A DNA stretch of 51,164 bases from an uncultured Eubacterium sp. (GTDB lineage: Bacteria; Bacillota; Clostridia; Lachnospirales; Lachnospiraceae): assembly GCA_947384955.1 (NCBI GenBank), contig CANDJC010000017.1, forward strand, positions 1-51,164, given 5' to 3'. Under the pieces are notes generated by a model, which was not told the origin of the DNA, did no database searches, and saw only the letters and a list, made by a program, of their open reading frames with translations. Both the position numbers and the translations under genes were made by a program. Of the stretch, positions 1 to 51,164 are shown one piece after another (within the stretch, counting starts at the first letter, position 1; the number at the start of each line of letters is the position of its first letter).

Positions 1-200
1 AGAATCCCTTAGCATTCTGCCCGATAACCAGGCGGCGAAGCCGTAGCGGCACCGGTAGCTGCTGGCTGCAGGCCAGGGCGAATAGGTGCCGCGTCCCGTC
101 CGGGGCCACAGCGCAGATGCAGAATGCTTAGGGATTCTTAACATTCTGGAACCGCCGCAGAAAGACCATGCAAATCCCCTATCCCGGCGTCCGAGGGGCC
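1..200 (+). repeat. Palindromic element, copy A (left outer arm outside the window)
   Basis: This is the first of four copies of a structured repeat (others at 44499-44757, 45288-45547 and 51111-51164). The inner stem pairs 1-20 (AGAATCCCTTAGCATTCTGC) with 119-138, with one mismatch. A nested stem pairs GCGGCACC (46-53) with GGTGCCGC (85-92), and an apical hairpin pairs CTGC (59-62) with GCAG (68-71). The right outer arm is 154-188, and the element ends in GGCGTCCGAGGGGCC (186-200). The matching left arm should lie just upstream of base 1. Confidence 0.8.
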
Positions 201-9622: not shown

Positions 9623-10624
9623 ATGGAGAAGGAATTTTTACAAAGAGGGCCTGTGCTGAATCAAAAAGGACACCCGAATCCGGGATATTCCAAAAAAAGT
9701 CTGTTAGTGTATGACAGAAAGGACATAAAAGCCGCACCATGGAGAAGGAAGGAGTGGGATTTTTACCAGGTATCGAATCAGCATCTGTGTCTGCAGTTTA
9801 CCATCGGGCATGCAGCTTATGCAGGGCAGGTGAGCCTGATGCTGTTTGATTTTGTAAAAGGAGAGAAATATCTGGACCTCAGCCAGATGCTTGTGCTGCC
9901 GTTTAACCGCCTGCATATGCCGTGTGATGCAGAAAAAAGCCATGTACTGTCCTATGACAAAGACGGTGTGTTTATGAAATTTGAAGTTAAAAAAGAGGTA
10001 CGAAGGCTCAGATGCAGATGGAACGATGTACAGGCGGAGATTTATCTGAAACGCTGCTGTCCTGATTCGCTGGTGATTAATGTGCCTTTTGATGAAAACC
10101 CGCGTGCTTTTTATTACAATCAGAAAATAAACTGTATGACTGCAGAAGGCTATGTCCGTACGAAAGAGAAAGAATGGAGGTTTGAGAGAAAGGATTCTTT
10201 CGGGCTGCTGGACTGGGGACGCGGTGTGTGGCCATTTCATAACGAATGGTACTGGAGCAACGGCACCGGATATCTGGACGGAGTTATGTTTGGATTTAAT
10301 TTAGGATGCGGATTTGGAAACACGGATACGGCAAGTGAGAATATGCTTTTTTATGATGGAAAAGGGCATAAGCTTGGGAAGGTTAGCTTTACGCTTGGAA
10401 AAGACTATATGCAGCCCTGGCGGCTGACAGACCGGGAAGGAAGGCTGGACCTTGTGTTTAAACCGTCTTATGACAGGACGACTGCGGTAAAAATGCTGTG
10501 GGTCGATAACTGCTGCCATCAGATGTTTGGGACATTTAGCGGAAAGGCTGTGCTGGATGACGGGAGAGTTCTGGAAGTAAAGGACGTGGTTTCCTTTGCA
10601 GAGCATGCGGTAAACAACTGGTAA
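9623..10624 (+). CDS. DUF2804 family protein
   Basis: The 333-residue product resembles DUF2804 proteins, which form two beta-rich lobes related to lipocalin-like or CrtC-like folds and have no established activity. Typical segments are the start RGPVLNQKGHPNPGYSKKSL, the central SFGLLDWGRGVWPFHNEWYW and the end CHQMFGTFSGKAVLDDGRVL. There is no signal peptide, so it probably acts in the cytoplasm. GAGGAGAAG lies about ten bases before the ATG at 9623, and a TTG three bases earlier would add one residue. After the stop there are 102 bases of no clear content before the decayed gene on the other strand. Confidence 0.8.
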   Translation: MEKEFLQRGPVLNQKGHPNPGYSKKSLLVYDRKDIKAAPWRRKEWDFYQVSNQHLCLQFTIGHAAYAGQVSLMLFDFVKGEKYLDLSQMLVLPFNRLHMPCDAEKSHVLSYDKDGVFMKFEVKKEVRRLRCRWNDVQAEIYLKRCCPDSLVINVPFDENPRAFYYNQKINCMTAEGYVRTKEKEWRFERKDSFGLLDWGRGVWPFHNEWYWSNGTGYLDGVMFGFNLGCGFGNTDTASENMLFYDGKGHKLGKVSFTLGKDYMQPWRLTDREGRLDLVFKPSYDRTTAVKMLWVDNCCHQMFGTFSGKAVLDDGRVLEVKDVVSFAEHAVNNW

Positions 10625-10726: not shown

Positions 10727-11616
10727 TCAGGAATTTATATTTAAAATCTCTGCCTCACAGCTGTGTTTTTTGTTCTTTTTATCATACGATATGCCGACAG
10801 CAAGAATTCGTCCGGTATATTTTTGCTTTTCTCCCGGCTTTGCCTGGAATTTCATTGCATAACGGCGGTCTTTAAGCTGCTGAAGAGCAATTCACCGTAT
10901 TTTTCTTCCGAGGCCATGGTATATTCGCAAAACATGTTCAGTTCAGAGCCGCTTGAATATTTGGCAATCGGAAGAATGCCTGTCATATAAACAAGCTCTG
11001 CATAAGGCTGGTCTTTGAAAAGACTGCTTAGAAAATCCAGGAAAGCAGCCTTATCTTTTTCAGTAATAAAATCACGATGAAAGATAAAGTCCCACTCGTC
11101 CAGAACGAAAATGAATTTTTCGCTGTTTCCGAATTCGAGAATGCTGTTAAATGCATCCCATAATGCATCATTTTCTTCAATCGGAGCATCAGGAAATTCC
11201 CGTATCAGGTCATGCAGCAGCCTTTTTTTAATACGGGATATATACTGTGTGTAAGAACTGCATTCGTCAGGAAGCTCGTTAAACATGATGTGCACTACAT
11301 TGTGTTTATTCAGGTGTGTTTCATACCACGGATAAGCGGACACGGCCAGGCCCTGAAACAATGCATGGCTGTCTGCGCCTTTTCCAAAGTAAGCGGAAAT
11401 CATACTGGCGGCCATCGTTTTTCCGAAACGCCGGGGTCTTGTGATGCAGATGTATTTGATATCCCTGCCCTGTGCTGCGCAGTCTGCTGCCGGATTCTGA
11501 CAGCCCAGCGCCGGAATCAGTTCGGCTATCAGCTGGCTTTTATCGGCAAAGTATCTGGCAGAACGGTTTTCCTGAAACATTAAATACGGTTTTTGGCTGT
11601 TTAAATATACGCCCAT
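10727..11616 (-). pseudogene. AAA-ATPase-like / PD-(D/E)XK gene with internal deletion and frameshift
   Basis: Reading from 11616, about 245 residues encode a good AAA-ATPase-like domain. It has a RPRRFGKT Walker A-like loop, FIFVLDEWDFIF as Walker B and AYAELVYMTGILPIAKYSSG-type sequence up to ASEEKYGE. Near 10889-10894 this frame leaves the family and hits a stop at 10852. In another frame the sequence resumes as the family's typical C-terminal end: ALQQLKDRRYAMKF, then YTGRILAVGISYDKKNKKHS, ending at 10727. Roughly 250 residues, including the nuclease catalytic residues, are missing between the two parts. An ATPase-only 254-residue product remains possible. No palindromic element lies upstream of this copy. 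Confidence 0.8.
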
Positions 11617-42992: not shown

Positions 42993-43784
42993 TTATGAAA
43001 TTCTCTTTTTCAATGCAGCCAGAGCGCCGTAATGCAGGATATCAAATTCCATGGGAGCAGTGCGTGCCAGCAGCTGCCGGTGTTCCCGTTCCCATGCAGC
43101 GGTTTCTTTTTCAGAAAGAGAAGCGCCGACGCCTCTGCAGGCTTTCATTCTGCCATTCCAGGATTCGCGCGTGAAATGAACCTTTAACGGGAACTCTTCA
43201 TGAAAGTCGGGGTCAAATTTTTCATAATAACAGCCTGGGATATGGACTGGGTGCATGGTTTCGCCCGCGCCGCTCCATCCGGGATTATATTTTAGCACAA
43301 GGTTTTCACTGGCCTGTGCGGTCTTATCTTCAAAAGGCAGCCAGGCCATATATAAGATAAGAATACGTCCGTTCGGTTTTAACATACGGAAAAGCTGTGG
43401 CATAATCTGTGCGTGGTTAAAATACCAAAAGCACTGGCAGGCGGTAATCACGTCAAAAGTGCCGTCTGGAAAATTTGTGTTTTCCGCTGACCGGACATCG
43501 TAATCAATATCCATTCCTTTCGAAAGTTCTCTGGCCATTTCAATCTGATTTTCTGAAATATCCGTTCCCGTCCATTTAGCCCCGTAACGGTACAGGTTCC
43601 TGGGAAGCACGCCGGTTCCCGTTCCAAGGTCAAGTACCTTCTGGCCCTGGACGCAGAGTCCGCGGTTTATTATCCTGTCATAAAATTCCTGCGGATAAAT
43701 ATCCCGGAACTTTGCATAGTCTTTCGAAACCCGTCCCCAGTCAAACGCTTTTCCTCCGTCTATATTTTTATCTGTAAGATTCAT
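42993..43784 (-). CDS. Class I SAM-dependent methyltransferase
   Basis: The 263-residue cytoplasmic enzyme has motif I VLDLGTGTGVLPRNLYRYGA near residue 48, with an acidic motif II region (WTGTDISENQIEMA). FDVITACQCFWYFNH and MLKPNGRILILYMAWLPFED follow, as in Methyltransf_11/25-type enzymes. The substrate cannot be told from sequence. The start at 43784 has AGGAG nine bases upstream on the minus strand and overlaps the stop of the truncated AAA-ATPase gene by four bases, so it is now expressed in its wake. That junction is probably secondary, since the upstream gene is cut short exactly there. Confidence 0.88.
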   Translation of the reverse strand: MNLTDKNIDGGKAFDWGRVSKDYAKFRDIYPQEFYDRIINRGLCVQGQKVLDLGTGTGVLPRNLYRYGAKWTGTDISENQIEMARELSKGMDIDYDVRSAENTNFPDGTFDVITACQCFWYFNHAQIMPQLFRMLKPNGRILILYMAWLPFEDKTAQASENLVLKYNPGWSGAGETMHPVHIPGCYYEKFDPDFHEEFPLKVHFTRESWNGRMKACRGVGASLSEKETAAWEREHRQLLARTAPMEFDILHYGALAALKKRIS

Positions 43785-44392
43785 TCTTTTTCTCCTCTTG
43801 TGCAGCAGGGACCCCTTTCCCGCTGTCTGAATCTGTCTTTTAATAGAAAACGCAGAAAATCAAGGTATTGTTTTTGAAGAGTGTCATCGGTCTGCCTTTC
43901 ACGTATTACGCAGTCCCATTCATCTATCAAAAATATAAATTTCTTTCCGGTTTTGATATAAATTCTTTTTAATGTATCGACAAGCCCCCTGTTCTGTCTT
44001 TTCAGGCAGTCACCGTATTCTTCCAAAAGTTCCTCGAGAACTTCCTGTTCCAGATACTGTGTCAGCTCCTGCTCTTTTGCACCGATTAAAAACTGCTGCA
44101 TATTCAGAAAGATGACATCATATTGATTCAGGTGCTTCTCAAAACTGCTGCAGCGCGAAAGAGAAAGACCCTGAAAGAGTTCTCTGGAACTGCAGCCGCG
44201 GCTGTAGTAGGCAGCAAGCATTTTTAATGCCATGGATTTGCCAAAGCGCCTGGGCCGGCTGATACAGATATATTTTTCTTCGGTATGAATCAGTTTGTTT
44301 GTACATGCGGCAAGGCCGGTTTTGTCTACGTATATCTGAGAGTTTATGGATTCACGGAAGCCGTCGCTGCCTGGATTTAGATATATTCCCAT
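43781..44392 (-). pseudogene. AAA-ATPase-like / PD-(D/E)XK gene, 3'-truncated
   Basis: The 203-residue frame contains the start of the family (MGIYLNPGSDGFRESINSQI), the RPRRFGKS Walker A-like loop near residue 48 and the Walker B FIFLIDEWD near residue 155. It follows the family to LRFLLKDR, then ends in an unrelated FRQRERGPCCTRGEKE. The family would continue with the MTGILPI segment and the nuclease domain, about 300-350 residues that are missing. It is closer to the decayed copy at 10727-11616 than to the intact gene at 432. Element copy C lies 107 bp upstream, with the same end facing this gene as copy A shows toward the gene at 432. Confidence 0.82.
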
Positions 44393-44498: not shown

Positions 44499-44757
44499 GG
44501 CTGGGCGGACGCCGGGAGAGGGGATTTGCACGGTCTTCCCGCGGCGGTTCCAGAATGTTAAGAATCCCTAAGTATTCTGCGGTCAGGCTGTGGCTGCGGA
44601 CGGTCGCGGCACCTAGTTCGCCCTGGCTTACAGCCATAAGCTAAAGGTGCCGCTTCGGCTTCGCCGCCTGGTTTTTGAGGCAGAATACTAAGGGATTCTA
44701 AACATTCTTCCAATGCCGCGGGAAGACCGTGCAAATCCCCTCTCCCGGCTGGTTTTT
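44499..44757 (-). repeat. Palindromic element, copy C
   Basis: This copy is complete and inverted relative to copies A and B. The outer arms 44511-44545 and 44715-44749 are perfectly complementary over 35 bases. The inner arms 44552-44580 and 44680-44708 (29 bases each) pair with two mismatches at conserved spots. The central part has the same GGCGGCGAAGCC and GCGGCACCT hairpins as copy B. The right end reads GGCGTCCGCC on the minus strand, and the left end is AACCAGCCGG. Confidence 0.9.
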
Positions 44758-44821
44758 GGGAAGCGTTACAGCTGCATGAAGTGACGGGAATGTATGAGTG
44801 GATGGAGGGTAGGAGTTAATG

Positions 44822-45025
44822 AAAGATATAAGTTATTGGCGGGGATATAAATTATTGGCGGGATATAAGTTATTGTAAGACATGAGTGAATGTAAGATAT
44901 AAGTTCTTGTAAGATATGAATGTAAGATATAAGTTCTTGTAAGATACGAGTGACTGTAAAATATAAGTTCTTGCAAGATACGAGTGACTGTAAAATATAA
45001 GTTCTTTTAAATATAAGTGACTGTA
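44822..45025 (+). repeat. Degenerate tandem repeats of an A+T-rich ~34-bp unit
   Basis: Units built of TAAGATATAAGTTCTTG and TACGAGTGACTG recur about six times with variable spacing. The best two neighbours lie between 44935 and 45003. There is no open frame of note. Confidence 0.75.
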
Positions 45026-45039
45026 AGATGTAAATAGCC

Positions 45040-45274
45040 TGAATGAATTATTTATATGTTTGGCGATATTCTATTGCACTAGTTTTCAATTTTTTGATTC
45101 TATGTTATATGTAGATTATACTGCCAGTATACATGATATATTTCAGATATCGCAAAAATACGTATGAATTAAATAAACTGATAAACTGTATTATTCTCCA
45201 ACAAATTATACAAAAATCAAATTATAATATAAATAAATTTCAAATTTGAATCTATCAAATCCTTCGCAGATTTT
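45040..45274. other. A+T-rich intergenic stretch without gene
   Basis: There is no supportable frame here. I see a perfect TTCAAATTTGAA palindrome (45239-45250) and widely spaced GCGATAT and ATATCGC inverted copies. Composition contrasts with the G+C-rich elements on both sides. Confidence 0.5.
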
Positions 45275-45287
45275 CATGTAAAACTTG

Positions 45288-45547
45288 AGAAAAACAGCCG
45301 GATGACGGGGAGATGCGCTGGATTCCTGTGACGTTGGAAGAATGTTTAGAAGCCCTTGGTATTCTGCTCGACAAACAGGCGGCGAAGCCGAAGCGGCACC
45401 TTTAGCTTATGGCTGTAAGCCAGGGCGAACCAGGTGCCGCGTCCGTCCGGTGCCACAGCATAAATGCAGAATGCCTAGGGATTCTTAACATTCTGGAATT
45501 GGAACAGAATCCAGCGCATCTCCCCGTCATCTGGCGTCCGAGAGGCC
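45288..45547 (+). repeat. Palindromic element, copy B
   Basis: This copy is complete and in the same orientation as A. The outer arms 45301-45325 and 45507-45531 are perfectly complementary over 25 bases but unrelated in sequence to those of copy C. The inner arms are 45339-45367 and 45466-45494. GCGGCACCT (45393-45401) pairs with AGGTGCCGC (45432-45440). The apical hairpin GCTTA and TAAGC closes a TGGCTG loop. The right end is GGCGTCCGAGAGGCC. Confidence 0.9.
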
Positions 45548-45703
45548 AAAAAACCATTCACCTTGTCCCCCGCAATAAATATCCCCCAGGGAGGCTTGTG
45601 AAAAGATTTTTTAAATGAGAAAATAAGGAATATCTGCAGGCATCCCGCTTCAGAACATCCGCTTGCAAATAAAGTGAAAACGAAAAAAGGAGCATTTTAA
45701 GTT

Positions 45704-51100: not shown

Positions 51101-51110
51101 GGGAGGTGCT

Positions 51111-51164
51111 GGCCTCTCGGACGCCGGGTGACGGGAAGATGCACCGGCTTCCTGCTCCGGCTCC
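51111..51164 (-). repeat. Palindromic element, copy D (cut by the window end)
   Basis: On the minus strand this gives the right end GGCGTCCGAGAGGCC and a right outer arm (about 51122-51150) related to that of copy B. The sequence breaks off just before the inner stem. It is inverted relative to A and B and begins 11 bases after the permease stop. Confidence 0.8.

Follow-up and report, generated by a model that had tools for sequence, protein, structure and literature searches.

A facing pair of palindromes in the window

The window, that is, the whole stretch of 51,164 nucleotides that was analysed, coincides with contig C17 and contains four copies (A to D) of a palindromic element with nested stems, two of which, A and D, are truncated by the contig ends (Table 1). 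An AAA-ATPase_like/PDDEXK_9 gene adjoins copy A (168-2153) and a shorter AAA-ATPase_like frame adjoins copy C (43781-44392). Folding, alignment and placement of the four copies bear out an earlier interpretation of this DNA made from its letters alone (the sequence-only reading), which had described the copies, their stems and their truncation at the window edges. That reading had taken the unit to be ~260 bp; the copies themselves are real, but the true unit is larger. Given that C lies on the minus strand and must be reverse-complemented to align to B, B and C are the halves of one facing pair, with the left ends (CAGCCGG) turned inward and the right ends (GGCGTCC / GGCGTCCG...) turned outward across a spacer of ~530 bp, in which ORF calling gave no frame of at least 80 amino acids. 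The arrangement of a minus-strand hairpin, a spacer and a plus-strand hairpin recurs in the host genome (G000) and in sister species, and the inner-flank motif of C, GTTAC, recurs in other facing pairs.

Table 1. Positions of the element and its parts in the window, with the end repeat
Feature	Position	Strand	Basis or remark
Facing-pair unit: hairpin C, AT-rich spacer, hairpin B	44499..45548	.	nhmmer placement
Hairpin C, type II outer stem	44499..44762	-	inward left end at ~44757, outer right end at 44499
Hairpin B, type I outer stem	45284..45548	+	outer right end GGCGTCCGAGAGGCC at ~45547
AT-rich spacer between both left ends	44763..45283	.	29% GC
Inner-flank motif of C, GTTAC (reverse complement GTAAC)	44765..44769	-	sequence
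Inner-flank motif of B, TTTTCATGTAAAAC	45271..45284	+	sequence; consensus
Conserved core of B (apical hairpins and a mid stem containing T.T mismatches)	45339..45494	+	covariance model R1
Conserved core of C	44552..44708	-	covariance model R1
Copy A, type II	1..199	+	5' part absent, contig begins inside copy
Copy D, type I, outer end only	51110..51164	-	contig stops inside copy
End repeat: GTAACAGTTCAGATAGGG in this genus, GATTCGGGTGTCAAAAGG in other genera			

Copy number and pairing in the host genome

The high genomic copy number that the sequence-only reading had expected was found: the host genome (5.06 Mb) gave 113 forward and 112 reverse matches (~225, some of them partial copies) to a 23-base core pattern with up to three mismatches, and the reversed control gave none. 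Forty copies scored by BLAST had 85-89% identity to B, the self-match of B being excluded. The repeat is the likely reason why contigs of this genome stop inside copies.

The outer stem exists in two types, I and II. Among 28 facing pairs read by eye at loci drawn as best matches to B, both left ends were readable in 24, and all 24 combined a type I with a type II hairpin; a differently drawn sample contained four same-type pairs (one each in L088 and L103, two in L104). The units lie between called ORFs, and their flanking genes are divergent, tandem or convergent. While the hairpins are well preserved, the spacers, AT-rich and ~110 bp to 2.4 kb long, have aligned pieces common to some only and mostly align poorly, and the end repeats described below are rarely recognisable. 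Among the long spacers listed, none was found to contain a transposase gene. That of L089, which measures 2.4 kb, contains a ParE-type toxin gene as well as an 85-aa frame that looked by eye like an IS3 fragment and had no Pfam hit.

At the facing pair upstream of rpoB in the host genome (L076, contig C1), a 33-bp piece of the hairpin right end is repeated about eight times in tandem between the pair and rpoB (~10822-11116), and similar right-end duplications were seen by eye in L031, L039, L050, L053, L059, L088 and L222. A short inverted repeat of unrelated sequence (CCTGTAAAGTTTAAAT ... ATTTAAACTTTACAAGG), perhaps another MITE, is nested in the spacer of the same pair, between positions 9953 and 10558.

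Distribution in the genus and beyond

In a scan of one genome per genus of the bacterial family (n = 299), only the host genome and a single two-mismatch match were returned, and the reversed control also gave one match. Ten of the 13 genomes of the genus had matches (9 of 12 without the host genome), G309 by a 39-base piece only and G299 with two matches, while six others (G300, G301, G302, G305, G306 and G307) yielded 43 to 546 first-look candidates each (~220 in G307), of which the best 40 at most were scored per genome. Phage, plasmid and viral-contig searches, from which records close to the window may have been left out, gave no match.

Facing arrangement prevailed too in the four sister species sampled further: of 39 neighbouring pairs no more than 2 kb apart, 35 faced each other (17/17 in G302, 6/7 in G307, 7/10 in G306 and 5/5 in G301), two of the 39 being overlapping fragments. 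Read by eye, each of the four shows a flank consensus of its own, as separate bursts would lead one to expect. At the rpoB site, compared in 10 of the 12 sister genomes (all but G301 and G309), G000 and G306 each carry a facing pair, with opposite type order. In G299, G300, G302, G303 and G304 there is no pair, and the upstream gene is, by eye, rplL at plain rplL-rpoB spacing. The site has an apparent deletion scar in G307, rplL and another repeat in G305, and other sequence in G308 and G076. Upstream of rpoB, a histidine-kinase gene takes the place of the usual neighbour (rplL by eye in five sister species) in G000, and in G307 another gene replaces it where the element scar sits (L137).

These comparisons bear on the idea that the palindromes are immobile and of old, vertical inheritance, acting at operon boundaries as terminators or regulatory hairpins and homogenised by gene conversion. 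Many outer ends in the host genome are indeed separated by 10-80 bp from the end of a converging gene (by ORF calls only), and a copy stands directly upstream of the same solute-binding-protein gene in G302 and G000, but flanks and copy numbers are species-specific, rpoB sites without the element exist, and target duplications occur in G303 and G306. Vertical inheritance thus seems a quite improbable account of the element as a whole, and we leave it open for part of the copies in the host genome.

Terminal repeats and target duplications

Units in G303, G305 and G306 end in inverted repeats, variants of GTAACAGTTCAGATAGGGTGTTAC. A pattern search for these terminal inverted repeats (TIRs), allowing up to three mismatches, found them in 5 of 13 genus genomes (70 + 82 in G306, 6 + 6 in G303, 8 + 1 in G301, 1 + 2 in G305 and 2 + 2 in the host genome; control 0). 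After repeated pairs and pairs near locus ends were dropped, 17 TIR pairs were counted in the sister species, 7 of which had 8-bp target duplications (at least 6 of 8 letters identical; 6/13 in G306, 1/2 in G303, 0/2 in G305), compared with ~0.6 expected from shuffled flanks; the other 10 had none. Three duplications are perfect (AATCATTG in L276, TCAAAACG in L284 and CTTAAGAG in L403), three match at 7 of 8 letters (L376, L379 and L408) and one at 6 of 8 (L405). Among these units, L276 (676 bp) and L376 (747 bp) carry two hairpins and L284 (320 bp) and L379 (465 bp) one, while L403, L408 and L405 have no hairpin by the hairpin model, L403 retaining stem pieces. Given that duplications also occur at these hairpin-less units, the ends, and not the hairpins, define the moving unit. 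This does not support the option, named by the sequence-only reading, that the element is moved as a hairpin, whereas the broader option of a non-autonomous mobile element agrees with the TIRs and target duplications of the sister species, in which mobility is well supported.

The host genome does not extend this support. A TIR end was kept (at least 11 of 14 letters) at 5 of 106 outer flanks and at 0 of 135 shuffled flanks, and among 30 pairs, taken after exclusion of those with flanks shorter than 40 bases, target duplications did not exceed the shuffled-flank level. In G302, the species with the most candidates, no conserved outer end was found past CGTCC. We read the copies of the host genome as older than those of the sister species, with eroded ends.

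Inverted-repeat ends combined with 8-bp target duplications point to a transposase acting in trans, probably of the DDE type, which would have inserted the TIR-bounded units of the sister species, whether these carried two, one or no hairpins. The copies of the host genome may derive from the same TIR-bearing ancestor and would now be old.

Search for a partner transposase

In draft assemblies, often without insertion sequences, no transposase could be tied to the TIRs, either at Y1 and IS66 loci or among the neighbours of TIR-end copies. A TIR beginning with GTAA together with an 8-bp target duplication is the signature of the IS66 family, and the element shares both traits. It differs in that IS66 transposase had no match in the carriers G000, G302, G303, G305 and G306 and in that 10 IS66 loci, checked with up to ~1.5 kb of flank, had no TIR-like ends. 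IS66 matches were present in G299, G300, G301 and G308, with two below the cut-off in G307 and G076. With no match in these carriers, descent of the element from IS66 is not supported. A gene beside TIR-end copies in G301 that looks like a transposase of the IS1634 type was judged a neighbour. Separately, G299 had 91 IS66 (PF03050) and 54 Y1 (PF01797) matches, fragments included, versus only two matches to the element.

REPINs are inverted palindrome doublets between genes, and the element likewise consists of two related facing palindromes dispersed between genes, which invites comparison with a REPIN/BIME-like system, in which a Y1 (RAYT) transposase moves paired palindromes in single-stranded form. 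Y1 matches were indeed found in 11 of 13 genus genomes, and at one Y1 locus (L253, on contig C131 of G302) a copy of the element lies ~190 bp away on one side, with a fragment at the contig start. However, L253 is the only one of the 30 Y1 loci listed (L240-L269) to show the element, neither Y1 locus of the host genome does, and G307, despite its many candidates, has no Y1 match. The palindromes are also far longer than those of REPINs, and the sister-species units have target duplications with TIRs, which are not generally expected of Y1 enzymes. We therefore consider a Y1-driven system highly improbable.

Kinship to TwoAYGGAY

When compared with Rfam, the window copies gave nothing at the gathering score and no match to RF01731 (TwoAYGGAY; gathering cut-off 43 bits) even at an E value of 10. 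The link to this family arose instead from a search with the core covariance model across 397 genomes of the bacterial family, followed by a second Rfam scan. With the best seven candidates at most taken per genome, the model reached seven genomes outside the genus, and the nine loci inspected proved to be RF01731 at 53 to 120 bits. Other copies of the host genome pass the cut-off (minus-strand copies of L098 at 44.4 and L070 at 47.8 bits), and the plus-strand copy of L098 stays just below it (42.0 bits); a fast-filter Rfam scan listed none of the L098 and L070 copies. In a scan that left out L383 and L104, L278, a member of a TIR-bounded pair, scored 50.5 bits. An intermediate is provided by L497 of G305, which joins window-type ends and mid stem to AYGGAY-type hairpins and matches both RF01731 at 116 bits and, over nearly its full length, the window-type HMM (3.5e-17). 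RF01731 itself matched 65 of the 397 genomes, the host genome included (63 above the cut-off; 59 of 334 genera), versus 0 of 14 control genomes. Within the genus, 6 of 13 genomes had matches (19 in the host genome, 20 in G301, 40 in G305, 7 in G306, 16 in G308 and 9 in G309).

The element and TwoAYGGAY agree in the mid stem (TTAG...CTTAG.A.TCTG / CAGA...CTTAG), in having an outer stem that is long and variable and two hairpins at the apex, and in the outward-reading strand. They differ in that the element has lost the AYGGAY loops, its window copies score below the cut-off and it reaches ~225 copies in the host genome, while Rfam types TwoAYGGAY as cis-regulatory, without a mobility label. As far as sequence comparison can tell, it is well supported that the element is a diverged relative sharing descent with TwoAYGGAY. 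Given that this homologous lineage has lost the name-giving loops, we do not count it as an ordinary member. The sequence-only reading could match the copies to no named element; that the element is unnamed no longer holds, given that other copies of the family match Rfam, although those of the window do not, and that the scores of L098 and L070 and the intermediate L497 establish the kinship. Four further loci of the host genome (L500, L506, L512 and L518) form a second subfamily with RF01731 matches of ~212 nt at 72-76 bits and apical hairpins that appear altered by eye; facing pairs of similar length lie on contigs C14 and C9.

TwoAYGGAY, an orphan RNA family, was described in 2010 and is listed as probably RNA, probably not cis-regulatory, and present in human gut, gamma-Proteobacteria and Clostridiales sequences (PMC2864571). 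In 2014 it was one of two families put forward as the first CsrA-binding sRNAs outside Gammaproteobacteria, as a prediction for Clostridia that was unvalidated there (PMC4333381). Its structure is treated in PMC11701678, PMC7657543 and PMC11661157.

Fold, covariation and strand asymmetry

As RNA, copies B and C have predicted folds of -147.2 kcal/mol (z -12.4) and -165.5 kcal/mol (z -15.05), respectively, and in neither case was any of 200 shuffles as good. Across 119 full copies (91 from the host genome and 28 from sister species, with incomplete copies and duplicates dropped), all four Watson-Crick types occurred at 17 of 32 outer-stem pairs, and outer stems paired at 98.5% versus 84.5% when 3' arms were swapped within group, the sister species being pooled. 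For the copies of the host genome alone, they paired in 98.95% of cells versus 87.1% with 3' arms swapped within type. In the same 119 copies, G.T was present in 40 paired columns and A.C in 20 (p = 0.0135, with one event counted per column and one fixed G.T column excluded), whereas unpaired columns had no such bias (82 versus 79). The excess was found in the host genome (29 versus 8) and in the sister species (28 versus 16), and a hand count in the genus-wide core of 54 sequences gave G.U in 17 columns (43 cells) and A.C in 6 (7 cells). Given that a G.T pair becomes A.C when the opposite strand is read, the excess favours a fold formed by the outward-reading strand, be it RNA or single-stranded DNA; with related sequences, p-values serve only as a guide.

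In most of the 54 aligned copies, the small apical hairpin (for example, window 45378-45390) reads GGC-GNA-GCC (N = A, G or C); the two L124 copies (AAA) are among those that deviate. In DNA, GNA triloops with a closing C-G pair have unusually high stability.

The structured RNA that the sequence-only reading had named as one option is partially supported by the strong covariation and the one-strand G.T excess, which come from sequence and predicted fold and still leave room for an RNA role. In its strongest form, this option makes the hairpins primarily functional, outward-transcribed structured RNAs of the TwoAYGGAY type carried by a transposon, with selection on the RNA maintaining them while TIRs and spacer decay. 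Stem pairing above the arm-swap level, the preference for G.T over A.C confined to paired columns and the agreement of the Rfam strand with the outward-reading strand all fit such a function. However, the spacers show no promoter-like excess (103 sites in 83 spacers versus 96 expected, a value reached by 18 of 100 shuffles), the orientation of flanking genes is mixed, the events counted are non-independent, and a hairpin of single-stranded DNA would give the same asymmetry. In addition, AYGGA, the supposed CsrA site, is present on the outward strand in 1 of the 119 window-type copies, none having two, versus 23 of 119 on the other strand; among RF01731 loci, with the better strand taken, 69 of 77 have an AYGGA and 47 of 77 have two. 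By these AYGGA counts, window-type copies mostly lack the GGA in outward-strand hairpin loops that a CsrA-binding sRNA should have, and some copies of G307 have GGA in the small apical loop. Overall, we regard primarily functional RNA hairpins as rather unlikely.

Possible mobility of the TwoAYGGAY family

RF01731 copies themselves occur in facing pairs. In the genus, 15 of 17 neighbours within 3 kb were arranged minus/plus and two plus/plus, with no other arrangement, in a hand count that includes two rows of window-type copies. In other genera, the same distance gave six minus/plus and one plus/minus among the matches listed (the best six at most per genome). Given that 2 of 30 added other-genus loci had a scored partner inside the locus, most other-genus copies seem solitary among the candidates scored. 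A GGTGTCAAAA-like core (at least 8 of 10 letters) was found on both sides in 23 of 77 RF01731 loci, versus 0.6 in shuffles, the core having been picked after some of the same loci had been viewed.

Target duplications of at least 8 bp were seen at three of 38 other-genus loci (L430, L432 and L452), a count made without a control. In the set of 77 loci, 37 of which are shared with the former, duplications of 7 bp or more were listed in L432 and L492 (9 bp each), L455 (8 bp), L452 (7 bp) and L430 (7 bp, at a different site from before), with control values of 0.2 at 8 bp or more and 0.5 at 7 bp. The duplication of L455 and the 7-bp one of L430 were set aside, their sites lying inside longer inverted repeats. 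This leaves accepted duplications at the palindrome ends of L432 and L492 (9 bp), L452 (7 or 9 bp) and L430 (8 bp). One TwoAYGGAY copy elsewhere (L416, on contig C2 of G326) has an outer stem paired at 115 of 116 positions and, with 130-bp flanks, folds to -333 kcal/mol.

For some of the TwoAYGGAY family, these data give good evidence of mobility; for the family as a whole, the evidence is weaker. In the literature passages covered, no mention of TwoAYGGAY mobility or its description as a transposon was found. Tentatively, and with somewhat less than even confidence, we suggest that TwoAYGGAY, rather than a regulatory RNA standing on its own, is a transposable-element family moving structured RNA genes, singly or as facing doublets, with selection on the folded outward strand, and that in this genus a lineage without the CsrA-like loops spread to hundreds of copies between operons.

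Conclusions

We consider it likely that the element represents a palindromic DNA transposon of the non-autonomous, MITE-like kind, as a genus-specific lineage present in many copies and of common descent with RF01731 TwoAYGGAY. It resembles MITEs in its TIRs and 8-bp duplications (in sister species), lack of evident coding capacity, high copy number and shortened forms, and differs from them in that its units hold up to two branched palindromes of 260 nt, which in the host genome outlast the TIRs. Complementary changes would keep the stems closed, perhaps because the outward strand folds into a useful RNA or because template switching repairs the palindromes. The element is a case, open to testing, in which the palindromes inside a transposon survive longer than its ends, and mobility of even part of the TwoAYGGAY family would change how the positions, the covariation and the supposed regulation of that family are read.
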